Assembly: GCA_017412605.1 (NCBI GenBank)
Contig: JAFPWY010000015.1
Coordinates: 1-64,000 of the forward strand
DNA: 64,000 bases
Direction: 5' to 3'
From: Fibrobacter sp.
GTDB taxonomy: Bacteria > Fibrobacterota > Fibrobacteria > Fibrobacterales > Fibrobacteraceae
A model generated the notes under the pieces. The model had not been told where the DNA came from and searched no databases. It saw only the letters and a list, made by a program, of their open reading frames with translations. Made by a program: the position numbers and the translations under genes. Below, piece after piece: positions 1,744 to 29,266 of this stretch; positions within the stretch are counted from its first letter, which is position 1; each line of letters opens with the position of its first letter.

Positions 1744-3438
1744 ATGAGGAGATCAAGAACAACCATCAAGGCAGCATTGTGCCTTGGCATATGCATGGCT
1801 TCGGCCATGGCTCAAGAAACCACCGCGGCGGCAACGTCCGTACCCACCAAATTCTTCGACGAGAACGGCGCCTACTATGGCCCGGACTGCGACAAGGACA
1901 AGAACTACAGCGGCGCCTACTATACGGGCGATTACACCAGCGCCTTCAAGAAATACTTGGGCAAGACCGATGAAGAAATCCAGGAAAAAATGGATGCTCT
2001 TTGGAATCACTACTTCAAGGGTGATGATAATTCCAAGGTCTTTTACGACAAGGGTAACGAAGGCTACATCAAGGACATCAACAACAACGACGTCCGTTCC
2101 GAAGGCATGTCCTACGGCATGATGATTGCCGTGCAGACGGGACACAAGGAAGAATTCGACAAGCTCTGGAACTGGGCCAAGAACCACATGTGGCACAAGG
2201 GCGGCGACTGGGACGGCTACTTTGCGTGGCAACGTAACGACAGTGGCACCGGTGGCGATGACAACTGCGCGCCGGACGGCGAAATGTACTTCATGATGTC
2301 CCTCCTGTTCGCAGCAAACCGCTGGGACGATGATCAGTACAGAAAGGACGCCCATTATATCATGGACAAGATGTGGAACAACCCGAGCCACAAGCTCTTC
2401 AACCAGGGCAACTACATTATCGTGTTCCAGCCGCTGGGTAGCGGTAACGATTTCTCCGACCCGTCCTATGACTTGCCGGCTTACTTGGAATTGTTCTCTC
2501 GCTGGGCCGAAAAGGATACCGACAAGTGGAAAAGGGCTGTGTCCGCCGCACGCGATCACCTTTATGTGTCTTCCAACAAGAACTCCGGTTTGTTCGCCGA
2601 CTACAGCGCCTTCAATGGCCAGCCGCAGTCTTATTCGTACAACTCGAATTCGACCAAGTACATGTACGACGCCATGCGCTCCGCGATGAACTTCGGTATG
2701 GACTTCTACCTGTTCGGCGCCGACTCTGTTCGCGAAGTTGAGATGGCAAAGCGCATTATCGACTTCTTCGAGAAGGATGGCTACAAGCATGCCCGCTTCA
2801 ACTGGGAAGGCACGGGTGGTTCTGAAGAATACACGCAGGGTGAAAAGGGCGCAAATGCCGTGGCCGCCCTGGCCCTCAAGGACGTGAGCGGTTACGATGA
2901 AATTATCAAGAAGAACCTGCAGATGGCCTGGGACGAACCGTTCATGACCGGTCAGTACCGCTACTACGACGGCCTAGTCCACTACCTCGCCATGCTCCAC
3001 CTCTCCGGTACCTTCAAGATTTGGAAGCCGAAGCCGAAGGACGTGAAGGAAAAGACGATGGAAGCCACCAAGATCGGCGATACCGACTACAAGGAAGGCG
3101 ACACCATCGACTGGTTCGAAGATTGCCAGCTTTACAAGGTGACCTTCACGGCCGCTTCCACCATGCCGACGCCCGGCGACTCTACGACCACTACGCCGAC
3201 ACCCGGCGATTCCACGACCACTACGCCGACACCGGGTGATTCTACGGCTGTCACGACGAATCCTGGCGTCACCACGCCGACCCTGACACCGGGCGACACC
3301 ACGGATGCGATTCGCCAGATGTACATGCGCGATTACGGGTACACGATGCAGCGTGACTACAACCTGAAGGGTTGCAAGGTCAACAGCACGAACAGGGCCC
3401 GCGGCGCCTACTACGGCAGGATGGTCCCGGCCAAGTAA
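1744..3438 (+). CDS. Secreted GH8 family glycoside hydrolase
   Basis: Start ATG 1744 follows GGAG at 1736-1739 and gives a signal peptide ending near AMAQE. The catalytic domain spans about residues 30-440 with GH8 landmarks: SEGMSYGM with the probable acid Glu120, DWDGYFAWQ around Asp155, and PDGEMYFM around 178-184. GH8 enzymes are inverting endoglucanases, xylanases or reducing-end xylosidases; the SEGMSYGM/AWQ pattern fits the xylan-active branch as well as endoglucanases, so the substrate is left open. A Thr/Pro/Asp linker (TPTPGDSTTT repeats, about 474-520) leads to a basic Tyr/Arg-rich C-terminal segment of about 40 residues, a feature of Fibrobacter glycanases. A strong terminator follows. 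Confidence 0.9.
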   Translation: MRRSRTTIKAALCLGICMASAMAQETTAAATSVPTKFFDENGAYYGPDCDKDKNYSGAYYTGDYTSAFKKYLGKTDEEIQEKMDALWNHYFKGDDNSKVFYDKGNEGYIKDINNNDVRSEGMSYGMMIAVQTGHKEEFDKLWNWAKNHMWHKGGDWDGYFAWQRNDSGTGGDDNCAPDGEMYFMMSLLFAANRWDDDQYRKDAHYIMDKMWNNPSHKLFNQGNYIIVFQPLGSGNDFSDPSYDLPAYLELFSRWAEKDTDKWKRAVSAARDHLYVSSNKNSGLFADYSAFNGQPQSYSYNSNSTKYMYDAMRSAMNFGMDFYLFGADSVREVEMAKRIIDFFEKDGYKHARFNWEGTGGSEEYTQGEKGANAVAALALKDVSGYDEIIKKNLQMAWDEPFMTGQYRYYDGLVHYLAMLHLSGTFKIWKPKPKDVKEKTMEATKIGDTDYKEGDTIDWFEDCQLYKVTFTAASTMPTPGDSTTTTPTPGDSTTTTPTPGDSTAVTTNPGVTTPTLTPGDTTDAIRQMYMRDYGYTMQRDYNLKGCKVNSTNRARGAYYGRMVPAK

Positions 3439-3466
3439 GGCTCGCTGAAATCATTTGAAACGATTT

Positions 3467-3497
3467 GCCCGGCTTTTTGGCCGGGCATTTTTCTTTT
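3467..3497 (+). terminator. Rho-independent terminator after GH8
   Basis: Stem GCCCGGC (3467-3473) pairs with GCCGGGC (3480-3486) around a 6-base loop and is followed by a T-rich run. It closes the GH8 transcript and lies between it and the convergent GH26 gene. Confidence 0.85.
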
Positions 3498-3561
3498 CAA
3501 ATAGAAGAAGGCCGCAACCTCGCTGGTTACGGCCTCTGTTGGTGTGAAGAAGGGTATTTTT

Positions 3562-4773
3562 TTACGGAAGCACGTTCAGTTTATAAATGCTGCGTGTGCC
3601 TGCTTCCGGCGTGTCGACCGAGTGTTCGCCGGGAAAGAACTGGCGTACGGGGCTCTGCCACAGGACGCGGCCCTGGTAGTCGAACTGTACGACGCTTGCG
3701 CTGATGGGCCTGGCGGTGCGCACGTAGAGCTTGCCGTCGCGGTAGGCGAGCGATCCCTGGCCAGGCTGGCGGACTGTCCCGATTCCGGTTGTCTGGCCTT
3801 CGCCCGATGAGCTCGATGTAGCCGGATTGACATCGCCCGTGCCGCTGGAAGATGACGGCTGTGCGCTCTGCATCTTGGCGATGCCCGCCTTCCAGGCGTC
3901 CACGGCGGCCTGCGACGTGTTGAGCGCCCAGTCTGCCTCGTTGTCTTCCTTGCTCTGGCTGAACCACATCACCGCGAACACGCGCGAGAAGTCTGTGGCG
4001 AAGTGCTCGAACATGTCGGTAATCCATTCGGCCTTGTTGCCGCCCTTCTCGGAGCTCGAGATTTCGGCGATAAAGAGGGGCTTGTTTATGTTGGCAAGTG
4101 CGTCGTAGGCCTTCTTGAACACCTGCGAGAACGACTGCCAGCTAGACCAGCTTTGGCACGTGCCCCAGTTGTAGCCGTCGATGGAGATGTAATCGACGTA
4201 TTCGTCGCCGGGGTAGTTGCCCGTGAGCGTGGTTCCGCTGCCCTGGTTCGATGCGTTGGTGGTCCATACCCACTTGACGTTCGTGACGCCTTCCTCCTTG
4301 AAGATTTTCACGATGTGGCGGAAGGCCTCGGCGACATTCGCGTCGGTGTTACCGGCACCGGATTTCCCTACCCCCCAGTCGTACCAGTCTCCGTTCGCTT
4401 CGTGGAGCGGCCTGAGCCAGATCTCGTCGCCGAAGCCCTTCACGCCTTTTGCATAGTCACGGATGTAGGTGTCGGCCTTGCCGTCCACCAGTTCCTGCGC
4501 CTTGTAGCCGTTCGCCATCCATGTGACGACCAGCGTGGAGCCGTTGTTCTTCGCAACATTCGCATACTGCGCGGTTGCGTCCCAGTCGTTGATGTCGAAG
4601 AGCGCAAAATAGCTGATGAGGTCGAGGTGCGTGCCCTGCAAATCCTGGAATGCCTGCACGTTCTGCTGTGTGGGCTGCGGGTATTGCCCGGGCCCGCCGA
4701 CCCAGGCGCCGATCTGGAAAGCTAAAGTAGTCATAGGCAGGATTCCCAGCGTGAAAAGGAGATTCTTGAACAT
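3562..4773 (-). CDS. Secreted GH26 family beta-mannanase-type hydrolase
   Basis: The protein (403 residues) starts at 4773 after GAGGACC and has a signal peptide ending at about LAFQ. GH26 catalytic motifs are visible: RPLHEANGDWYDWG with acid/base Glu125 and PLFIAEISSSEKGG with nucleophile Glu237. WVWTTNA and YISIDGYNWG are further family landmarks. GH26 retaining enzymes mainly cleave beta-1,4-mannan. A Ser-rich linker (about 305-330) joins a C-terminal module of about 70 residues with a short beta-strand pattern (VVQFDYQGRVLWQ) that resembles C-terminal secretion/anchoring domains of Fibrobacter enzymes; this last point is inference. Convergent with the GH8 gene. Confidence 0.9.
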   Translation of the reverse strand: MFKNLLFTLGILPMTTLAFQIGAWVGGPGQYPQPTQQNVQAFQDLQGTHLDLISYFALFDINDWDATAQYANVAKNNGSTLVVTWMANGYKAQELVDGKADTYIRDYAKGVKGFGDEIWLRPLHEANGDWYDWGVGKSGAGNTDANVAEAFRHIVKIFKEEGVTNVKWVWTTNASNQGSGTTLTGNYPGDEYVDYISIDGYNWGTCQSWSSWQSFSQVFKKAYDALANINKPLFIAEISSSEKGGNKAEWITDMFEHFATDFSRVFAVMWFSQSKEDNEADWALNTSQAAVDAWKAGIAKMQSAQPSSSSGTGDVNPATSSSSGEGQTTGIGTVRQPGQGSLAYRDGKLYVRTARPISASVVQFDYQGRVLWQSPVRQFFPGEHSVDTPEAGTRSIYKLNVLP

Positions 4774-14530: not shown

Positions 14531-15280
14531 TCACTTTGATTTTTTTCTTTTTCGTTTAGCTTCTGCTTCAAAACCTAATTGCCAAAATCCCATATCGATT
14601 AGTTTCATTTGAGGGTATTTGATTTTGTGATTAATCTTCATCTCTTTACGGATGGCCTCAAGATCTTTGCTATGGGTGTTGTAAAAATCACAGAGTTGTT
14701 TAATAGATTTCTCTGAAAATGTGTTAGAAGGTTTTTCTTCGTCCGTTTTTTTCTTACGTTTAGTGCCTTTTACAGCCTTCTTAAAAAAACGATCATACGC
14801 TGGGGCGCAACCTAAAGTTCCCATTAAAACTTTTGTAACTAGGACATCTGAAATTTTATGGCTTACATCGGCATATTCAGGCAATTTTTTTCGAAGAGTA
14901 TCATATGATTCCCTTATTTCCTCCTTTAAATCTTTTAAGAGAGCCCAGTTCTCCACAACTTGTTTGCAGGAAGCTCCTAATAGACAATCATATTTGTTTT
15001 TTAGAATGATTTTTATTACGTCATTATGGATTTTATAATCTCTTTGCAGTAGGAATGAATTTCTTAACATCCCCCAACTTGCAAGATAAAAGGCCAGATG
15101 CAGGCACAAGGCGTCGTAATCTTTATTGTTAAGTCTCTTCTTGCGTGCTAGATAAAATTGCTCATAGCAGTGTTCCCAAGATTTATACCGGCTATTTTCT
15201 TCTTTGCAATTATTATAGAAGGTTATGAGGGCATTTTTAAATGCCGTATATCGATCGATTTGATTGTTTGTGTTGGCCAT
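14531..15280 (-). CDS. Helical hypothetical protein, last gene of ATPase-TOPRIM operon
   Basis: 249 residues, strongly basic and alpha-helical, ending in a Lys/Arg tail (AEAKRKRKKSK). The middle contains LCLHLAFYLASWGMLRNSFL and DYKIHNDVIKIIL. No family name recognised. Its ATG is one base after the stop of the ExoX_C-like gene, so the two are translationally coupled. A basic tail suggests nucleic-acid contact (inference). Confidence 0.65.
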   Translation of the reverse strand: MANTNNQIDRYTAFKNALITFYNNCKEENSRYKSWEHCYEQFYLARKKRLNNKDYDALCLHLAFYLASWGMLRNSFLLQRDYKIHNDVIKIILKNKYDCLLGASCKQVVENWALLKDLKEEIRESYDTLRKKLPEYADVSHKISDVLVTKVLMGTLGCAPAYDRFFKKAVKGTKRKKKTDEEKPSNTFSEKSIKQLCDFYNTHSKDLEAIRKEMKINHKIKYPQMKLIDMGFWQLGFEAEAKRKRKKSK

Positions 15281-15281
15281 A

Positions 15282-15980
15282 TTACAGTTCCTTAAAGTCT
15301 ACGGCGAATCCACTGATATTCAAAGTTGCCCATTTAAGATAGTCCATATCGTTCTCGGCGACATACCTTATTGTCTTGCCTTTATATTTTCCGAAGGTTA
15401 ATGTGTCGTCTGGATGTTGATCCTCAATATGATAGCTTTCAAGGTCTTTTGATCTTTCTTTTACCAATGCGTCCATATCAAAGAACGCAAAATAATACGC
15501 GATGTTCTGAGCTGCCCATTGTACCCATGGCCAATCTGTGTGAACCACCTCTGCTAAGGTTCTCCCTTTATATTTGCCCATTTCCAAAACATCGTTGATG
15601 CCGATTAATTTAGCGGGTTCAGCTGTTGGGTCATTTAGAATATCCAACAGCACCCATGAACCGCATGCTGCACAAGGAATGCCTCGAGGCGTTGTGTCGC
15701 TCTTTAGGCACCAGCTTTGTTCTGGATCGTTTTCCCTTGCATCAGCTCTTTCGCCATTCCGATAATAGAAACCATAAGCGTCTCCGTATTTTCCGCCTTT
15801 TCCGCCGGGCTTCACTTCGTGCACTTCTACGTATTGTGATTTGTAGTAATTAGATATTCTACCGTCAGGATATCGCTGCGCGCGAAACGGTAAGACCCTG
15901 CCTATGTCATAATAGATGGAAATAAGGCTATTGCGAAGACCTTTTTTGTTGATGCTTCTTATTAGTTCGTTTTTATCCAT
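15282..15980 (-). CDS. Protein with two ExoX-C-like GKYKG motifs
   Basis: The start at 15980 (MDKNELIRSINKKGLRNSLI) is chosen because GGGAGGAACC precedes it. The 232-residue product has a Cys pair (PCAACG) in the middle and two copies of the short exonuclease-X C-terminal-type module: MGKYKGRTLAEVVHTDWPWV and FGKYKGKTIRYVAENDMDYL. This module normally accompanies DnaQ-type exonucleases and may bind nucleic acid ends; no exonuclease catalytic domain is visible. It is the third gene of a four-gene operon, 11 bases after the TOPRIM gene. Confidence 0.6.
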   Translation of the reverse strand: MDKNELIRSINKKGLRNSLISIYYDIGRVLPFRAQRYPDGRISNYYKSQYVEVHEVKPGGKGGKYGDAYGFYYRNGERADARENDPEQSWCLKSDTTPRGIPCAACGSWVLLDILNDPTAEPAKLIGINDVLEMGKYKGRTLAEVVHTDWPWVQWAAQNIAYYFAFFDMDALVKERSKDLESYHIEDQHPDDTLTFGKYKGKTIRYVAENDMDYLKWATLNISGFAVDFKEL

Positions 15981-15991
15981 GGTTCCTCCCG

Positions 15992-16708
15992 CTACATAAA
16001 CGCTAATCCAAAATTCGTACGTCGTTCCAAAGAATTGCGACCTACCTGGATTTCTTTCCACGATTCCTTGTGATTATCCGTCAGCGACAATTCAGGTTTC
16101 GGTTTGTATGCGAAGTCGGACTTTGAAATAAAATTGATGAATCCGGGAATGTTTTCCCTGTAATGCAGGGCGAAATTTACGGCATCAATCTCTTTGTCCT
16201 TGTCGTTGGAATTTTGCTTGTTGTAAAGCACGTGATCCAAGTTGCACGACATGTAGTAGGCGTTATAGGGGACTTTCCAGATTGTCGGTGTGCTCGCCAA
16301 ACGCAAAAGGTTTTTCGCCTTTCTTGAATTGCGCTCGATGATATTTTCCCGAACAGGGCATAGGATTTTGTCCAGGGTGTAGAAGGGTGCATCCACATTG
16401 CCCTGCACTACATAGCTTTCCGCGACAAAAGCGCCATCGGTATCTACGATGTGGATGATGCGTTCGAAATGCTCCGGTTTTAAGCGGTAGGAATCGGCCC
16501 ACCTCTTGACGACCTCGGCAATCTTCTTCGTGATATCTGCTGTGCCGACTTTTTGGTGCGTGTCCTTGTCGAACTCCGTCGTGATATCGCAATGCATCAC
16601 GTGGGTATAGACGGTATCCTTGTCGAAATGGCGGGAAAGGAGCACGCCGAGGGCGGTTTCGTCGGAGGGACCTTCAACAATGACGAATATGACTTTTTTA
16701 CGAGGCAT
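15992..16708 (-). CDS. TOPRIM-domain protein paired with AAA ATPase
   Basis: Start ATG 16708 lies 5 bases after GGAGG. The 238-residue protein opens with KKVIFVIVEGPSDETALGVL, giving the TOPRIM Glu12, and continues to IIHIVDTDGAF with the D-x-D pair Asp89/Asp91. These are the metal-binding residues of TOPRIM nucleases such as those of OLD/GajA-like, PARIS AriB and RloB-related proteins. It overlaps the ATPase gene by 11 bases. In such pairs the ATPase commonly senses and the TOPRIM protein acts as nuclease effector; that role here is inference. Confidence 0.7.
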   Translation of the reverse strand: MPRKKVIFVIVEGPSDETALGVLLSRHFDKDTVYTHVMHCDITTEFDKDTHQKVGTADITKKIAEVVKRWADSYRLKPEHFERIIHIVDTDGAFVAESYVVQGNVDAPFYTLDKILCPVRENIIERNSRKAKNLLRLASTPTIWKVPYNAYYMSCNLDHVLYNKQNSNDKDKEIDAVNFALHYRENIPGFINFISKSDFAYKPKPELSLTDNHKESWKEIQVGRNSLERRTNFGLAFM

Positions 16709-18071
16709 TGGAACCTCCGGCAAGTTTGAAAGCCAGGGCGATTTCGGAATTGTTGGTCGATTCGTAAACGGGTTCGCTCTGTTCGCCCAGGATAATGTCG
16801 CGGTAATAGAAGTCGCGCAGGTTGTTGGTCGTCTTCACGCCGCTGAAGCGGATGTACCTGTTCATCGGGTTTGTGGTAGTGAACACGATGAAGTTCTTGT
16901 CCAGCGTTTCGAGGGGCCGCAGGTTGTGCGACGTGAACAGCAGCTGCCCCTTGCCCTTCTCGGAAATGACGCGGAGAATTTCGCCCAGCAGGTATTCGAA
17001 GATGCCGGAATCGAGCTCGTCTATGGCGACCGTGATGGAACGGTTGTTATAGACATCGATAAGCAGGGAGAGTATGGATATGATTTTCTTGATGCCGTCG
17101 GATTCCATCACGAGCGGGAATTCATGGCCTTCCTTGCAAGATGTCATCTGCACGATATAGCCCAGCGTACCATCGGGCATAAGTTCCTTGCCGAGAATCT
17201 TCAGGCCGACCTTGAGATTGGGAATAATCTGCGGCAGAACGATGTTTATGCTGTTGATTGTTTTTTTCAGAATCTCCAAAACAATCGAAGAAACAGGTGT
17301 TGATCTTCTTAATGCGAGCAACAGGCTTAGGGACGTATGGTTTTCGCCGTGGTCCAGAGAGATATGGAGCGGCATGTCGTTTAAGTTGATGCGCCCCGTA
17401 GAAGCCGTCCTGATTACAAAAAGTTCACGTGCGCCATACCACGCCAATCGTGCCAAAATAGAATTAGTTTCTCCAGGTATAATGGCATCGTTCATTTCCT
17501 TCGAGAATATAAAGGAGGCGGTATTTGCTTCGGCCATTTTTTTTGCGACGAGCAGGGCGGTCTTTTTGTTTTTGTCTTTGCCCATGAGCGCGTCGTATTT
17601 CGCTTTGGGGACAAAAGGGGCTTCGCTGTCGGTGTCTATGTAATCGACAAACTTGGTCGCAGAATCCTTATTTTTGCTCGAATAAGAAATCTTCTCGTTG
17701 CAAATGACTAATCTGGTGAGGTGTTCGCTTTCGGCTTTCTTTAGTGTGAAGCTATAGACTACTTTGTAGCTGGTTCCGCTATCGTTATCTTCGATGGCGA
17801 ACTCGAATTCAAGACGGGCAGACTCGCTATCGACATTGATGCAAGATATGAAATAGTTGGCGACGTCTTGGGGCATGGGGTATCCCATAAGGCAATGCCT
17901 CAGCAAGACCAGGGCTTCGATAATCGCTGTTTTACCGGAACCGTTTTGCCCGTAAATACCGGCAATACAGGCCTCGTTTTCGTCCTTGCGAACCAGAGAA
18001 ATTTCGCCTTTTTTGACGTTTTTGAAGTTTTCAAGGAGGATTCTCTTCAATATGACCGTTGAGTTCTTCAT
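16698..18071 (-). CDS. AAA15/RloA-like ATPase, first gene of the operon
   Basis: 457 residues. P-loop GQNGSGKT at residues 41-48 follows LENFKNVKKGEISL, the usual SMC/RecF-like opening. The second half holds the ABC-type core with TVAIDELDSGIFEYLLGEIL (Walker B/D-loop region) and QLLFTSHNLRPL (switch His). The end (RFSGVKTTNNLRDFYYRDII) resembles RloA/AbiL-type ATPases of abortive-infection systems. It is followed by TOPRIM, ExoX_C-like and helical genes with overlaps or gaps of a few bases. Confidence 0.8.
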   Translation of the reverse strand: MKNSTVILKRILLENFKNVKKGEISLVRKDENEACIAGIYGQNGSGKTAIIEALVLLRHCLMGYPMPQDVANYFISCINVDSESARLEFEFAIEDNDSGTSYKVVYSFTLKKAESEHLTRLVICNEKISYSSKNKDSATKFVDYIDTDSEAPFVPKAKYDALMGKDKNKKTALLVAKKMAEANTASFIFSKEMNDAIIPGETNSILARLAWYGARELFVIRTASTGRINLNDMPLHISLDHGENHTSLSLLLALRRSTPVSSIVLEILKKTINSINIVLPQIIPNLKVGLKILGKELMPDGTLGYIVQMTSCKEGHEFPLVMESDGIKKIISILSLLIDVYNNRSITVAIDELDSGIFEYLLGEILRVISEKGKGQLLFTSHNLRPLETLDKNFIVFTTTNPMNRYIRFSGVKTTNNLRDFYYRDIILGEQSEPVYESTNNSEIALAFKLAGGSNAS

Positions 18072-18538
18072 ACCCCTAAAATAGCTTAATCAGCCGAAAA
18101 AGTCAACGCCAAACGCAAAAACGATATAAAAAATATCGAAAATGGCTTTGATTAGTTGAAAAATAGGTGTGGTGAAGCCGGGACATAGTCCATATAATAC
18201 CTCTTTTTTTTGATGCTGGGGGTGGGGAAGGGCTTCCCCTCGCGAGAAGTCCGTGGAAGGAGATTTTCGTCCTTCTCGGACAGTTGGGGTAAAAAAAATG
18301 AAGGCTCTGGAGCAATCAGGTGCTTATTTTAAAGGGTAAAGTAAAAATGTGCCAGTGCCATTTGTTCTAATTTTGTGAATTTGTGTTATATCTGCAACAA
18401 AGTATTTGGAAAATGATTGCGTTTCTTGTGATGTAGCATATTTATAATAAATTTTTCGGATAAGTTACTTTTGCAAATGAATGAATGAGTATACATTTAG
18501 AGCGTTATAAATTGACTAGATAATTAGAGGTTATGATA
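18072..18538. other. Intergenic region between divergent defence operons with hairpins
   Basis: 467 bases with no credible ORF. From left: a palindrome CGATAT-AAAAA-ATATCG (18122-18138), 51 bases before the ATPase start; a G-rich hairpin GGGGAA/TTCCCC (18224-18239); and a longer hairpin with arms GTCCG..GAAGGA and TCCTTC.CGGAC (18249-18281). The last 200 bases are AT-rich and should contain the promoter of the reverse transcriptase operon. The hairpin block could be part of an RNA or a degraded element. Confidence 0.5.
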
Positions 18539-20149
18539 ATGGATTTTGCTAAAATAGCTATAGATAATATATCAAAGTGGGGTGATACGGATATTTTCCC
18601 TTTTTCTGTGGAAAATGCTCTTTTTTATGACAAACCTGATTTGGTTAGAAATCTCATTATAGATATGGAACGGAATTTTGATGCTTGGATGGCTGATTAT
18701 CCGGTTAAATGCGTAAAAACGTGTGTTCCTGTGGGGTATACTGGTTATCGTTGGGCCTCTTCCATTGATCCGTTATGGAATTGTTTTTTATTGTATCAAA
18801 CGCTTAAGATATCAGAGAAGTTGGAAAAAAATCGTATTCCGATTAGTAAACAAAGTGTTTTCTCGTATCGATTAAAAATAGATGAAGAATCTGGTAAAAT
18901 TTTTGATCCCGATCAGAATTGGAGAGCATTTTGCACAAAAGCTGTTGAATATGCTGAATCAGGAAAATATCGATTTGTTGTGCGTTTTGATATATCAGAT
19001 TTTTATAATCGTATCTATCATCATCGTCTTGAAAATAATTTGATTAGATGTAAGGCTGATGGCAATGTAATACATCGAATAATGAAGATTTTGCAAGCGT
19101 TATCAGATGATGCCTCTTATGGACTTCCTGTAGGTGGAAATGCTTCAAGAATTTTGGCAGAAACACTTTTAACATCCTTTGATCAGATGTTAGCAATAAA
19201 AAGAATTGTTTTTTGTCGTTATGTAGATGATTATATATTATTTGCGGATTCACGAGAAGATGCGTTTAAAAAACTAAACTATTGTGCAAAGTATCTTTTG
19301 CAGAATCAGGGATTAGGACTTCAGAAAAGTAAAACACAAGTGATGACTATTTCTGAATTTATATCGCAAACAAAAAATGTTCTTGAATCAATGGAAGAAG
19401 AAAGTGATGAAATCTCCAAAAAACGTGCTGAGTTTTTAAGACTTCATATACATTATGATCCGTATTCTGCTACAGCAGAAGAAGATTACGAAAAATTAAA
19501 AGAGAATATAAAGAGTTTTGATGTTCTATCTATATTAAAAAATGAAGTGCGGAAAAGTAGGATTCACCACGCTTTGGGAAAACAAATCCTAAATGCAGTA
19601 TCCTTTTTAGATGGAAGGAAGCTAGATCTCGCATTTAGCGTGATTGGTGCGAATATTGAAAATTTGTATGCAATTTTTCCCTCTGTTATGCAGATTGTTC
19701 GTAAAAAAATACAGGAAGTTTCACCAGATATACAAAAAGAATTTATTTCGACTTTGTTTGATTTAGTTGAAAAAGATTCTTATATTCTTCAGACGGAAAA
19801 TAACGCTTCTTACGCAGTCCGCGTGTTTGCTAAGTATAATGATGAAGTGAGTTATCAGGCTATTGATAAATTATATTCTAGAGAAGCGTCGTCTTTAGTC
19901 AGGTCTAATTGTCTATATGCAATGGCTAATTTAGGTAATGGTCCGTGGTTGTCAGATAAAAGACCTGATTTTCCATCATTTTCTACTTGGGAACGAAGAG
20001 CTTTTATTGCTTCATCCTTCTTTTTAAATGATGAAGGAAAACATTGGCAAATACATGCAAAGAAACAATTCTCTAAATTTGAAACCATTGTTATGGATTG
20101 GGTTGGTGAAAAAATTAGAGAAAATAAGGATTGGAAATTTCCAATATGA
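18539..20149 (+). CDS. UG/Abi-type reverse transcriptase (defence-associated RT candidate)
   Basis: ATG 18539 has AGAGG 8 bases upstream (the ATG at 18533 is too close). In the 536-residue protein, the N-terminal DTDIFPFSVEN and GYRWASSIDP are typical of the unknown-group/Abi RT class. RT motifs follow: RFDISDFYNRIYHHRLE with catalytic Asp151, GLPVGGNASRILAE, RYVDDYILFAD with the YVDD box at 228-231, and LGLQKSKTQ. The C-terminal half (about 300-536) is alpha-helical with HEAT-like character, the known layout of Abi/UG RTs such as AbiK. No maturase, integrase or retron msr-msd gene was recognised. Its stop codon overlaps the start of a nuclease gene (ATGA). Confidence 0.85.
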   Translation: MDFAKIAIDNISKWGDTDIFPFSVENALFYDKPDLVRNLIIDMERNFDAWMADYPVKCVKTCVPVGYTGYRWASSIDPLWNCFLLYQTLKISEKLEKNRIPISKQSVFSYRLKIDEESGKIFDPDQNWRAFCTKAVEYAESGKYRFVVRFDISDFYNRIYHHRLENNLIRCKADGNVIHRIMKILQALSDDASYGLPVGGNASRILAETLLTSFDQMLAIKRIVFCRYVDDYILFADSREDAFKKLNYCAKYLLQNQGLGLQKSKTQVMTISEFISQTKNVLESMEEESDEISKKRAEFLRLHIHYDPYSATAEEDYEKLKENIKSFDVLSILKNEVRKSRIHHALGKQILNAVSFLDGRKLDLAFSVIGANIENLYAIFPSVMQIVRKKIQEVSPDIQKEFISTLFDLVEKDSYILQTENNASYAVRVFAKYNDEVSYQAIDKLYSREASSLVRSNCLYAMANLGNGPWLSDKRPDFPSFSTWERRAFIASSFFLNDEGKHWQIHAKKQFSKFETIVMDWVGEKIRENKDWKFPI

Positions 20150-20835
20150 TTTCTGAAACAACATTTGCAAGAGGTTATTCATCCTTTTGGATGGAATGTT
20201 TTCCGTGGCTAAATTCGTATTCTCAAACTGTGAATGAATATCAGTTAAATAGGTTTTCTGCGCCCTTTTCTAAATTTGATAAAGCAGAGCATCGCTCTAT
20301 TAATAATACGATTGCTTTTTTTCATTTTCGAAATTTGGTGTCAAACTTGAATTTTTCTCTAGAAAAATCAAGGGATGAAGCGCTCCAGTACATGATGCGT
20401 TTCCCAAGAAATAATGTGTTAACATATGAGTTTAATTTAAATGATAAATATGTTATTGAAACGTTGTTGAAAAATTTGCAGAAAATTCCTAAAACAAACC
20501 TTGTTTTGGATCCATTCTTTTCTGGTTGTGGAATAATTGATAATTGTAGAGGAGATATTCTTCAAGGAAATAAGCTCATAGAAGTTAAGGGTGGAAATAG
20601 GTATATTCAGCCTGCAGATATCAAACAACTAATTGTTTATTTGGCTCTTGATTGGATTTCTTCAAATAAGCACAATATTTATCAAGTAGAAATTTACAAT
20701 CCTCGTGTTGGTTTTTCATGGACAACGGATACGGATGATTTGTTTCGTTCTGTAACGAATTTCACAAAGGAAGAAGCTCTTGAACAGCTGACTAAGTATT
20801 TGGTTATGCAATCTGAAGAAATGGTAATAGAATAA
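20146..20835 (+). CDS. PD-(D/E)xK nuclease-like protein coupled to the RT
   Basis: Start ATG 20146 overlaps the RT stop (ATGA), so translation is coupled. The 229-residue product contains GDILQGNKLIEVKGGNR: Asp137, then Glu146-Val-Lys148, followed by PADIKQLIVYLAL with a conserved-type Gln. This is the core of PD-(D/E)xK nucleases (D, ExK, Q). The N-terminal 130 residues are helical and unassigned. The tight coupling suggests the nuclease acts in the same system as the reverse transcriptase, possibly as effector. Confidence 0.7.
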   Translation: MISETTFARGYSSFWMECFPWLNSYSQTVNEYQLNRFSAPFSKFDKAEHRSINNTIAFFHFRNLVSNLNFSLEKSRDEALQYMMRFPRNNVLTYEFNLNDKYVIETLLKNLQKIPKTNLVLDPFFSGCGIIDNCRGDILQGNKLIEVKGGNRYIQPADIKQLIVYLALDWISSNKHNIYQVEIYNPRVGFSWTTDTDDLFRSVTNFTKEEALEQLTKYLVMQSEEMVIE

Positions 20836-20864
20836 AACGCTTAAACTTTTTTAAGGAGATAAAA

Positions 20865-21293
20865 ATGGACATGATTTGGACCATAATAGAAAAGTTGACT
20901 AGTCTAATGGGCCCGATAGCGACTCTCGGTAGAGAAAAAAGGGAACTGCAGGATAACGCTCTTAGGGCGATTTCTCATGCGTTGCATGAGACTCAAATTT
21001 ATTATGCAGGATTAAGAAGAGGAAATGAAATAGATCGTGAAATAGAGAAGCAATTATCTCGTTATTGGTCGGCAGCAGCGATTCCTCTTAGGCATATAGA
21101 TCGAGATTTGGCGATGCTTTGTGAAGAAAAAAGTAATTATTGGATTTGTCCAGAAGAATGGCGTGGAGATAATGTGACAAAAATAAGTATTCAGTTGGAC
21201 AATCTAGCTGATGCATACAGGCGTTTAATTAAACCGGGCTATAAAAGAGCGGCTGTTGTTAATCGGAATGAAATGTTTAATGATAACCCTTAG
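20865..21293 (+). CDS. Small helical protein, third gene of the RT cassette
   Basis: 142 residues behind a good AAGGAG (20851-20856), 29 bases after the nuclease gene. All-helical composition (TLGREKRELQDNALRAISHA, then LHETQIYYAGL) with a conserved-looking ICPEEWRGD stretch. No known family recognised. Its position at the end of the RT-nuclease transcript suggests a regulatory or structural partner. Confidence 0.6.
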   Translation: MDMIWTIIEKLTSLMGPIATLGREKRELQDNALRAISHALHETQIYYAGLRRGNEIDREIEKQLSRYWSAAAIPLRHIDRDLAMLCEEKSNYWICPEEWRGDNVTKISIQLDNLADAYRRLIKPGYKRAAVVNRNEMFNDNP

Positions 21294-21511
21294 TTCATTC
21301 TTTTGCGCAAGTAAGTAAAGATTCTGAAAATGTAACGATTTATATTAATTTGATGTGCAGGTAAATGACGAAGGGGCTTTGTATTGTAAAAATCTTCGGC
21401 AAGATTAGATGAATTGTTCGGCAGAAAACTTTTCTCGCGAGTTTTCAGTGCATGCTGTTGCAAATGAAATCTGACTAGGACTGCGCGCACCACATTTTTT
21501 ACTTTCCATAA

Positions 21512-21530
21512 CCGCCCTTATGAGAAGATA
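21512..21530 (+). repeat. Inverted repeat IR-L of hsdS inversion cassette
   Basis: CCGCCCTTATGAGAAGATA, 19 bp, perfectly repeated in inverse orientation at 22596-22614. It encodes RPYEKI at the start of each half-hsdS cassette. Confidence 0.9.
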
Positions 21531-22079
21531 ACTGTTGAAGATGCGCCTTTTGATATTCCTAGTTCATGGAAATGGGTAAAATTGGGCGATGTATGCACTT
21601 TTTTAAATGGTTTTGCGTTCGATAGTAAAGATTTTCAAAAAGAAGGAATTCCTATTATTAGAATTTCTAATATCGGAAAAGAATCTATTGATTTATCTAA
21701 TTGCGTGTATTCAAAAGATATACTGAGCTCAAATTTCGAGGTCATTGATGGTGATTTGCTTATAGCGATGTCCGGAGCTACAACCGGGAAAATGGGTATT
21801 TACACAAATTGCGACAAGGCTTATCTGAATCAACGAGTTGGAAACGTTAAAATCAAGAATGAAGAAGTGCTTATACGTGGCTATAGGAACATATTCCTTT
21901 TTTCACAAAGCGATCGCATTCTTGCTGATGCATATGGAGGAGCCCAACCTAATATTAGTAGTAAGGCTATATGTGAAATCCCTATGCCTCTTCCACCTTT
22001 AGCAGAGCAGAAACGAATCGTAGACAAGGTCGAAGAGCTTTTCAAATCGCTAGATGAGATTTTGCTCCATCTGATCTAA
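21512..22079 (+). pseudogene. hsdS: Silent hsdS half-cassette A (one target recognition domain)
   Basis: The frame is open from the inverted repeat (HNRPYEKITVEDAPFDIPSS, then WKWVKLGDVCTF) to the stop at 22079 and encodes one DNA target-recognition domain plus the C-terminal helix PLPPLAEQKRIVDKVEELF. It lacks a start codon with ribosome site and the first half of HsdS, so it is a storage copy. It matches the arrangement of the second half of the complete hsdS at 23504-25018. Its end overlaps the end of cassette B, which lies in the opposite orientation. Confidence 0.8.
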
Positions 22080-22614
22080 TGTGGAATACAATTCTTCAAT
22101 CTTTGAAACAATACGAGATTGCTCATTTAAGGGCGGGATTGGTAATTCATATTTTTTTACTTCATATGGTTTTGCCCTAGTTAAAGAGCCGCCAACACCT
22201 GATGTGTTTGAAAGCATTTTATTCAAAAAATAATTAGATTGAAGTACATAAACTAGATATTGCGGATTCAATCTAGAATTTCTAATAATAACCCATTCCG
22301 AAGATGCAATCATCCGGTGTTCCGTAAATTGAGGAACGCGCCATACTCTGTTTAAGTGTGGATTTATTTTGCTAATTAAAACATCGTCTTTTTTTACTAA
22401 AACTTTTGTAGATCCTATTTCTGATCCAGTTACAATTTCCGGATGCCTTACTTCAAAACACGGGACGCTATATAATTCATATACGCGATTCTTATTTTCT
22501 TTTAACATCGGATTTTCAGTATATGACTGAAAATCATTAATATCGTCCATTCTTACCCAACGCCAACTTTCTGGTATTTCAAAGGGAATGTTCTCTATCT
22601 TCTCATAAGGGCGG
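22050..22614 (-). pseudogene. hsdS: Silent hsdS half-cassette B
   Basis: On the minus strand from the inverted repeat at 22614: RPYEKIENIPFEIPESWRWV then RMDDINDFQSY and a different target-recognition domain, ending with PIPPLNEQSRIVSKIEELY. No start or first half is present. It is convergent with cassette A, overlapping by 30 bases in the shared C-terminal helix region. Confidence 0.8.
22596..22614 (-). repeat. Inverted repeat IR-R of hsdS inversion cassette
   Basis: Reverse complement of 21512-21530, identical over 19 bp. A related site with a few differences lies in the active hsdS at about 24077-24097 (minus strand CCGCCCCTACAAGAAGA), encoding RPYKK. Confidence 0.9.
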
Positions 22615-22680
22615 CAGTGTAAACTTGCAAAATGATTCTTTGTTATAAATCGATATCATCATTTAAACAAAGGAATCAAC

Positions 22681-23502
22681 ATGCCAAAACAAAAACGAGA
22701 ACAAACGCCTTTTGAACGGTATCTGCGAAAGCAGAATCTTTCTGAAAATACGCTAACATCCTATTTATGGACTGTCAAATACTATTCCGAGCATTACGAG
22801 GATTTTTCAAAGGAAAATCTTTTGGCGTATAAGGAATATCTTATTGAATTCTTTAAGCCCAAGACGGTTAATCTTCGCTTGCAGGGATTGAACAAGTATT
22901 TGATTTTTATCAAGAAAGGAAAATTGCAACTGAAATTCGTCAAGGAACAGCAGAAAAATTTCTTGGAGAACGTCATCAGCAATGCGGATTATCAGTTTTT
23001 TAAATCAATGCTTAAGGCTGATTGTAATTTGGAGTGGTATTTTGTGGTGTGGTTCCTGGCGGCAACGGGAGCGCGTGTCAGCGAACTGACGCAAATCAAG
23101 GTGGAACATGTGAAAATCGGCTGGTTTGATCTGTATTCCAAAGGCGGTAAACTTCGGCGACTGTATATTCCTAAAATTCTCCGCAAAGAAGCGCTTGAAT
23201 GGTTGTCTAGTATTAATCGACATTCAGGATTTATCTTCTTGAATCGTTTTGGCAAGCGGATTACTACAAGGGGGATTGCTTCGCAATTAAAGACTTACGC
23301 CATCAAATATGGAATTAGCACCAAGGTCGTGTATCCACATTCTTTCCGACACCGTTACGCAAAGAATTTTCTAGAGAAATTCAATGACATCTCGCTACTT
23401 GCCGATTTGATGGGTCACGAAAGCATTGAAACGACTAGAATCTACCTTCGCAGAACCGCGAGCGAACAACAGGAAATTGTCGATACAGTCGTAACTTGGT
23501 AA
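22681..23502 (+). CDS. Tyrosine recombinase, probable hsdS invertase
   Basis: 273 residues. The N-terminal SAM-like domain (FERYLRKQNLSENTLTSYLW) is followed by the catalytic domain with ATGARVSELTQIK (first Arg), PHSFRHRYAKNF (H-x-x-R), LMGHESIETTRIYLR (GH and the nucleophilic Tyr). Lying between silent hsdS cassettes and the complete hsdS, and ending 1 base from it, it fits the tyrosine recombinases that invert hsdS segments in phase-variable type I systems. Its own promoter should lie in the 66 bases between IR-R and the ATG. Confidence 0.85.
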   Translation: MPKQKREQTPFERYLRKQNLSENTLTSYLWTVKYYSEHYEDFSKENLLAYKEYLIEFFKPKTVNLRLQGLNKYLIFIKKGKLQLKFVKEQQKNFLENVISNADYQFFKSMLKADCNLEWYFVVWFLAATGARVSELTQIKVEHVKIGWFDLYSKGGKLRRLYIPKILRKEALEWLSSINRHSGFIFLNRFGKRITTRGIASQLKTYAIKYGISTKVVYPHSFRHRYAKNFLEKFNDISLLADLMGHESIETTRIYLRRTASEQQEIVDTVVTW

Positions 23503-23503
23503 T

Positions 23504-29266
<5,763 letters not shown>

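Follow-up and report, generated by a model that had tools for sequence, protein, structure and literature searches.

A Fibrobacter reverse transcriptase and its overlapping nuclease gene very probably form a two-protein DRT type 8 system, with a probable passenger gene behind it

A contig of Fibrobacter sp. (JAFPWY010000015.1) carries, in close succession, genes for a reverse transcriptase (RT), a predicted nuclease and a small helical protein. The question raised by this locus is whether the three genes form a defence cassette of a new kind, as proposed in a first-pass annotation, or whether they represent a known system. In the window, which is the whole stretch of 64,000 nucleotides that was analysed, the following features were located.

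18072..18532, no strand: intergenic stretch upstream of the RT gene; nothing in Rfam at gathering scores, and no long stretch shared with the upstream flanks of relatives
18539..20149, forward strand: Drt8 reverse transcriptase, 536 amino acids; PADLOC Drt8 match, YVDD at 19220-19231
20146..20149, forward strand: ATGA overlap of the nuclease start with the RT stop, seen in the sequence; presumed translational coupling
20146..20835, forward strand: predicted Drt8-partner PD-(D/E)xK nuclease, 229 amino acids; PADLOC RTasPDDEXK match, AlphaFold2 model, invariant residues
20554-20556, forward strand: nuclease Asp137 (Met = 1)
20581-20583, forward strand: nuclease Glu146 (Met = 1)
20587-20589, forward strand: nuclease Lys148 (Met = 1)
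20626-20628, forward strand: nuclease Gln161 (Met = 1)
20853..20858, forward strand: Shine-Dalgarno-like AAGGAG before the third gene, seen in the sequence
20865..21293, forward strand: 142-amino-acid helical protein of PHROG 12412/28881 (PHROG 12412, E 2.2e-20); probably a passenger

The first protein is an RT of the UG/Abi type with a YVDD box, as had been suggested, and a putative HEAT-like C-terminus. It matches the PADLOC model Drt8 (PDLC03783) with E 4.7e-150, the runner-up being RT_UG21 (E 4.7e-36); we take DRT8 to be the group UG7. There is a further in-frame ATG at 18533, and the TGA stop is at 20147-20149. The catalytic site (YxDD) is intact, with D230 and D231 present in 85 out of 85 distinct RTs and D151 in 83 out of 85. 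The second protein matches PADLOC RTasPDDEXK (PDLC03797) with E 1.8e-52. An association of DRT8 with PD-(D/E)XK is already in print (PMC12596737). Since both proteins match catalogued models, and gene order and overlap are as in the relatives, the suggestion of a new DRT subtype is not supported; on sequence comparison, the cassette is a further example of the known DRT type 8. The features of all three ORFs are far beyond chance, given their specific profile matches, and the proposed defence-island setting is supported. A broken or decayed cassette was also considered and rejected, both the RT and nuclease ORFs being full length with conserved residues.

The third gene is a different matter. 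The 142-codon ORF does begin 29 bases past the nuclease stop, as first described. Its product matches PHROG 12412 across residues 18-120 (positions 12-114 of 118) and PHROG 28881 with E 2.6e-9; there are no matches in PADLOC, Pfam or NCBIfam up to E 1, PDB matches are at chance level only, and the predicted model is all-helical and of low confidence (pLDDT 63.9). No homologue was found among the ORFs of 94 RT loci by phmmer or by profile; as a control, the same profile gave 22 matches in a 22-locus set, three of those loci being part of the profile. The gene is therefore probably a passenger. The expectation that both downstream genes would be found beside homologues of the RT thus holds for the nuclease, present in 80 out of 80 of the best relatives, but not for the 142-amino-acid gene (0 of 94 loci); among the related loci examined, the window alone has it. 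On this absence and the PADLOC matches, the three-gene set as a new DRT subtype was rejected.

It is very unlikely that the 142-amino-acid protein is a real DRT8 component, such as a regulator, membrane anchor or infection sensor. Its gene is on the same strand, behind a gap of only 29 bases, with its own Shine-Dalgarno-like site, and in a phylum sample this gene and the Drt8 RT were each found in one out of 167 genomes, in both cases the window's own, therefore they may have arrived together. However, a homologue was found in only one of the 28 DRT8 genomes searched (out of 30 taken from the 80), where it is on a 1.3-Mb contig and DRT8 is on an 892-kb contig. Elsewhere, relatives of the gene occur in phages of Escherichia and Klebsiella, on 18 viral contigs and on two plasmids, in one setting next to a ParDE pair; none of the fetched stretches contains an RT or a DRT8 nuclease. 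The locus is almost certainly a two-protein DRT type 8 system, predicted to be anti-phage, with a passenger gene behind it.

The pairing of RT and nuclease is, by comparison with the third gene, constant. The reported stop/start overlap is present in the window, where the nuclease ATG (20146-20148) and the RT TGA share four bases, and 77 out of 86 related loci likewise have an in-frame nuclease start at a 4-base overlap, the start being taken as the in-frame start codon closest to such an overlap. The nuclease is directly 3′ of the RT in all 80 genome relatives, supporting the view that it is the constant partner of the RT; because these 80 loci were chosen from 172 as those most similar to the RT of the window, this is valid for that clade only. 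The nearest among them (L016, L017, L018, and L020; 55-59 % RT identity) are mostly from Bacteroidota, plus one contig labelled as a Euryarchaeota MAG. Distances between RTs and between nucleases correlate (r 0.88, 83 pairs), with none of 1000 permutations as high. Residues W80, N81, W128, H161, D307, and P308 of the RT, and further S310, Y317, D328, K339, and G500, are conserved among RTs of the nuclease clade but seldom found in nuclease-free RTs (L017, L020, L049, and L088 were left out of the residue and distance comparisons).

In the tree, the 83 nuclease-coupled RTs all fall to one side of a branch that has an SH-aLRT value of 91, the window RT being within a set of five with support of 100; near copies and contig-cut or broken genes (L009, L010, L017, L020, L043, L049, and L088) were left out. 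The nuclease-coupled clade, with a nuclease beside every sampled RT, spans 11 phyla by the tree labels. Across one branch from it lie distant RTs matching the Drt8 model that have no nuclease. Twelve of these were collected, seven of them from the 15 Drt8-model loci of evenly drawn samples, in which the nuclease is present in eight; five of those eight are genomes already reached via nuclease-bearing loci, three being search centres, which leaves three out of ten. The nuclease-free RTs may be a different type, in which case the single Drt8 model of PADLOC would take in both a nuclease-coupled type and a nuclease-free one. A DRT8 nuclease profile gave seven matches in 395 genomes, four of them strong (E below 1e-50) and all four with an RT; the other three are weak (35 to 42 bits), longer, and without an RT in the fetched stretch, and were taken as another family. 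Plasmids searched with a single Citrobacter nuclease gave no match; however, this search is insensitive, as three plasmid loci do carry a diverged nuclease.

The nuclease had been recognized by a D-x8-E-x-K motif and a following Gln in a 229-codon ORF, and these residues were located as Asp137, Glu146, Lys148, and Gln161. Together with Y165, they are invariant in 86 out of 86 distinct sequences. The AlphaFold2 model (pLDDT 95.4) has a predicted PD-(D/E)xK core, in agreement with the fold that had been expected, formed by strands 137-139 and 142-146 and helix 155-170. The D and the E-x-K are on neighbouring strands and the Q-x3-Y is on the helix, an arrangement of the RecB/Cas4-like group core; Q-x3-Y after E-x-K is, we assume, a RecB/Cas4-type signature. 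With VIA-align, the model matches AdnA (Z 9.6), MGME1 (9.4), the Cas4-family ACE1 (9.1), AddAB chain A (8.5), RecBCD chain B (8.3), Dna2 (8.0), and lambda exonuclease (6.4), all presumably DNA-end-processing enzymes, whereas restriction-type chains rank lower (restriction-endonuclease-like 3ijm, 4.7; BsaXI, 4.5). Z scores between 8 and 9.6 are modest: the list also has unrelated helical chains at 4.4 to 5.9, and the program itself warns that Z below 8 can be generic. Foldseek gave nothing at E 0.001 or better and a nuclease profile found no PDB sequence up to E 1; a family missing from such lists is not thereby ruled out. Although the predicted fold and the order of catalytic motifs are shared with RecB/AddA/AdnA, MGME1, Cas4/ACE1, and Dna2, sequence identity is just ~8-15 % in the structural alignments. 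From the model, we predict that the DRT8 partner acts on DNA ends, as a RecB/Cas4/MGME1-like nuclease, and is not a cutter of the restriction type.

No match to Rfam was found upstream of the RT at gathering scores, and blastn of 500-base flanks among the relatives gave only near-relative matches and short isolated ones, in a comparison that would miss an RNA within ORFs or one too diverged. The window's flank has a single match, of 33 bases in L032 (E 9e-4), which was put down to chance. At L008-L010 and L040 the RT start overlaps an integrase gene by 8 bases, and L012 has phage genes on both sides with gaps of 125 and 47 bases; any ORF of at least 100 amino acids was counted in flank gap lengths, so that spurious ones are possible, and these loci were checked by eye. 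Among solved structures, the RT has sequence matches to AbiK (E 4.6e-8) and to UG15 (E 6.7e-6), which we take to be DRT4. These are template-independent RTs; however, RTs of group II introns and of the retron type rank above them (down to E 5.4e-10), and that the best solved relatives are template-copying, group II intron-type enzymes counts against template-independent synthesis in DRT8.

The reading we prefer, tentatively and at somewhat less than even probability, is of a DRT8 pair in which the nuclease restrains the DNA product of the RT, with the 142-amino-acid protein as a passenger. The RT would make DNA, probably without a dedicated ncRNA, like AbiK and DRT4, and the end nuclease, translated in step with it, would trim or destroy this product, keeping the cell safe. 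Upon infection, the product would build up and arrest the cell, owing to phage proteins that protect DNA ends or block nucleases of the RecB type. It is a serious but rather doubtful possibility that DRT8 is in this way a self-contained toxin-restraint pair, the RT constantly writing toxic DNA that its RecB-like partner erases, until a phage with Gam-like or ORF55-like proteins unleashes it.

There is precedent in other systems. AbiK is a single-gene system. DRT4 and DRT6, both template-independent RTs, are described as such (PMC13213688), whereas DRT8 has a dedicated nuclease. According to PMC13213688 and PMC13314766, phage ORF55 shields DRT4 DNA from exonucleases, and according to a preprint (PMC13174585) RecBCD restrains DRT3 and ExoI restrains DRT9. 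The likeness to DRT3 and DRT9 is the model of a product held low by an exonuclease; however, these systems use a nuclease of the host and require an ncRNA, whereas in the window the operon itself encodes the nuclease and neither Rfam nor flank blastn detected an ncRNA. Other DRTs are reported to lean on host exonucleases and DRT8 would carry its own; if so, the RecBCD logic of DRT3 and the ExoI logic of DRT9 would have been moved into one operon. The points counted for restraint are this DRT3, DRT9, and DRT4 precedent, the PADLOC identity, the constant pairing with correlated distances, the end-processing fold matches with the invariant Q-x3-Y, the AbiK and UG15 matches of the RT, the lack of an ncRNA signal, and tolerated breaks in the RT. 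Counted against it are the modest Z values, the Foldseek result at E 0.001, and the nuclease-free Drt8-model RTs, which live without such restraint.

An effector nuclease would be equally coupled and conserved, which also counts against restraint. Doubtful, though possible, is that the nuclease is a killing effector, held inactive by the RT or its DNA, or activated on infection, to cut phage or host DNA by a retron-like logic; the first-pass annotation had proposed an effector controlled by the RT or its cDNA. Abortive infection often ends in damage to host DNA, and the constant pairing, the co-variation and the complete set of PD-(D/E)xK residues fit this equally well; however, the better fold matches are to end-processing enzymes, with restriction-type chains lower. 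Natural breaks also bear on it. In E. coli EN-1077, an IS3 is inside the RT, and in L049 there is an in-frame stop in the RT, the nuclease ORF being intact in both; the nuclease alone therefore does not look lethal. These two loci speak against an effector in so far as the RT is at least not required to restrain a toxic nuclease, although activation by the RT is still compatible with them. The natural breaks number three, and the third is the opposite, the nuclease of L043 being shortened after the active site with the RT intact; in addition, the IS3 in EN-1077 may have silenced the nuclease as well, and the L049 sequence comes from a metagenome contig. For restraint, these are points on the other side.

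Less probable still, and in our view unlikely, is a role for the nuclease as a processing factor within one synthesis pathway, making 3′ ends or primers for the RT, or releasing or trimming protein-linked DNA into its active form. Cas4, Dna2, MGME1, and AddA/RecB-type enzymes, which the nuclease matches, serve to trim ends during recombination, replication, and the acquisition of spacers, and the clade-specific RT residues from W80 to G500 could form a contact surface. However, the nuclease-free Drt8-model RTs show that related RTs manage without a nuclease.

Two papers from 2026 call the mechanism of DRT8 unresolved, and a literature search, with subscription papers and most preprints outside its scope, found no paper on it. 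A partner predicted to be a DNA-end nuclease, as preferred here, provides a concrete and testable frame for this mechanism, and the third gene is removed as a false lead. A related RT-nuclease pair, whose RT is ~40 % identical to that of the window (through L040) and which can lie in a P4-like satellite, is present in 105 out of 5426 complete E. coli genomes, assessed from annotation and single-piece matches with small frameshifts outside the scope, making a laboratory test easy.

The three open reading frames of the candidate cassette, the YVDD box, the ATGA overlap at 20146-20149 and the 29-base gap, all described in the first-pass annotation, were verified in the window, as was the D-x8-E-x-K motif with its following Gln.

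18539-20149, plus strand: reverse transcriptase (RT) gene
20146-20835, plus strand: PD-(D/E)xK nuclease gene
20865-21293, plus strand: open reading frame for a helical protein of 142 aa

Against PADLOC, the RT matched Drt8 (E 4.7e-150; runner-up RT_UG21, 4.7e-36) and the second protein matched RTasPDDEXK, the model for the DRT-associated nuclease (E 1.8e-52; runner-up PDC-S61, 6.8e-6). In Pfam, RVT_1 was the sole family above its cut-off for the RT, and the one match for the nuclease, DUF1186 (E 3e-4), was under the cut-off of that family. Based on these PADLOC matches, and on a PD-(D/E)XK domain association of DRT8 already published (part of the text of PMC12596737), the pair is assigned by sequence to DRT type 8. 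By the same matches the cassette is of a catalogued type and not the new DRT subtype that had been suggested.

A single-sequence scan of genome contigs returned no relatives of the RT. Six plasmid loci were fetched; alignment of the window with five of these led to eight viral loci. A further alignment, joining the window RT with RTs from four viral and two plasmid loci, detected 172 genome-contig relatives, and the 80 best were retained. The nuclease gene lies directly behind the RT in all 80, and an in-frame nuclease start is present at the same 4-base overlap in 77 of 86 loci when six nuclease-bearing viral loci are included. RT and nuclease distances are correlated (r 0.88 over 83 pairs, equalled in none of 1000 permutations). 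Among the best 80 of the 172, the top RT identities (55-59 %) are in three Bacteroidota loci (L016, L018 and L020) and in a contig labelled as a Euryarchaeota MAG (L017). Of 5426 complete E. coli genomes, 105 carry copies of a Citrobacter pair (L040; 40 % RT identity to the window). The copy in strain H3 occupies a known defence hotspot of a P4-like satellite, with an integrase gene next to a tRNA on one side and the phage polarity suppression gene on the other. Confinement of the RT (E up to 1e-60) to 1 of 167 genomes of the phylum, that one being the window's own, points to horizontal arrival.

Some distant RTs matching the Drt8 model have no such nuclease alongside (loci L003, L006, L007, L014, L015, L121, L122, L123, L127, L128, L129 and L134). 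The 95 RTs were placed in an unrooted maximum-likelihood tree by a quick search, and a single branch with support of 91, under the 95 mark, has all 83 nuclease-coupled RTs to one side; this clustering was matched by none of 500 shuffles, and there are several long branches within the 12 nuclease-free RTs. W80, N81, W128, H161, D307, P308, S310, Y317, D328, K339 and G500 are almost constant among the nuclease-coupled RTs and seldom occur in the 12 others. The PADLOC Drt8 model therefore spans at least two architectures, and the window RT falls in the nuclease-coupled part.

Behind the nuclease-free RT of L123, after 54 bases, lies a gene matching PADLOC PD-Lambda-3_A (3136-3633, E 3.4e-51), whose product resembles, by eye, another D...E-x-K protein. 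The nuclease-free RT of L122 (556-3039, minus strand) reaches 827 aa through an extended C-terminal part, in which a membrane helix is probable by eye and similarity to DUF3108 is weak and below threshold. In L006 (4968-8653), the nuclease-free RT is followed by a second, different RT gene, reminiscent of two-RT systems.

The third gene is co-directional with the pair and probably co-transcribed, yet the three-gene set originally proposed did not recur in the loci compared: the 142-aa protein was unmatched in the ORFs of 94 RT loci, by single sequence (E up to 10) and by profile, a few of these stretches stopping shortly past the nuclease (L024, for example, after 97 bases). The profile gave 22 matches in a 22-locus control set, three loci of which are in the profile itself. 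Among 28 searchable DRT8-bearing genomes the protein was found in one, on a different contig from DRT8. It is most likely a passenger. Its PHROG matches are to two function-unknown families, 12412 (E 2.2e-20) and 28881 (E 2.6e-9), and homologues occur in E. coli and Klebsiella phages, in 18 viral contigs and beside a ParDE pair on a Salinivibrio plasmid. Another is embedded in a 576-aa Rhizobium alpha/beta-hydrolase protein (L100, 4071-5801), which provides a lead to the function of the family.

Seven nuclease residues are invariant in 86 distinct sequences: G126, D136, E145, K147, D157, Q160 and Y164 (+1 if Met is counted). The AlphaFold2 model has a mean pLDDT of 95.4. Foldseek gave no match at E 0.001 or better, the top match being the Cas4-family protein ACE1 (E 1.3e-3). 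VIA-align gave AdnA (Z 9.6; 173 aligned, 4.4 A), MGME1 (9.4; 155, 4.0 A), ACE1 (9.1), AddAB chain A (8.5), RecBCD chain B (8.3), Cas4 (8.1) and Dna2 (8.0), values within 1.6 of each other so that their order is not meaningful; unrelated helical chains appear from Z 5.9 down. These are enzymes acting on DNA ends, and the group is more telling than any one match. The invariant residues and predicted fold uphold the PD-(D/E)xK motif noted at first pass, and the model narrows the nuclease to the RecB/Cas4-like branch.

The mechanism of DRT8 is described as not established in parts of two 2026 papers (PMC13213688; PMC13314766). According to sections of the same papers, DRT4 DNA becomes toxic when a phage protein shields it from exonucleases, and part of a preprint (PMC13174585) reports that DRT3 and DRT9 products are held down by RecBCD and ExoI, respectively. 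Because its partner resembles nucleases that restrain or degrade the products of other DRTs, the simplest reading by analogy is that DRT8 carries its own restraint and the nuclease would keep the RT product down. Natural breaks agree weakly with this: E. coli EN-1077 (the sole two-piece match among 60 E. coli records in the matches listed) has an IS3 inserted in the RT, and L049 has an in-frame stop in the RT, both with the nuclease ORF intact. Counting against restraint, L043 has an intact RT and a nuclease shortened past its active site, and the three cases together decide nothing. It is almost as likely that the nuclease is the effector, and a processing role is possible. The window pair is of value for placing the nuclease, for dividing the Drt8 family and for setting up a clear-cut test between restraint and effector. 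Synthesis by the RT may be template-independent, since no ncRNA signal was found at the RT (Rfam; comparison of locus flanks), some loci have no room for one upstream, and solved relatives include AbiK and UG15, although group II intron-type RTs score higher.

The DRT8 pair is located in a defence island. Upstream, a minus-strand AAA ATPase matches PADLOC AbiLi (E 2.2e-31); the gene after it has a weak, sub-threshold DUF4276 match, and by sequence the two (together 15992-18071) are a possible AbiL-like pair. Downstream of these (14531-16061) lie two more proteins, one carrying a pair of ExoX-like C-terminal repeats and the other, of 249 aa, matching nothing in Pfam. Downstream of the DRT8 pair is a type I restriction-modification set (specificity subunit, methyltransferase and restriction subunit), in which hsdS fragments are oppositely oriented around a tyrosine recombinase.

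22681-23502: tyrosine recombinase, inside the type I restriction-modification region
21534-21596 and 23999-24061: 63-nt inverted repeat (83 %) in the region of the hsdS fragments

This region (21503-25018), which borders the DRT8 pair, is a candidate for a type I restriction-modification locus that undergoes phase variation.
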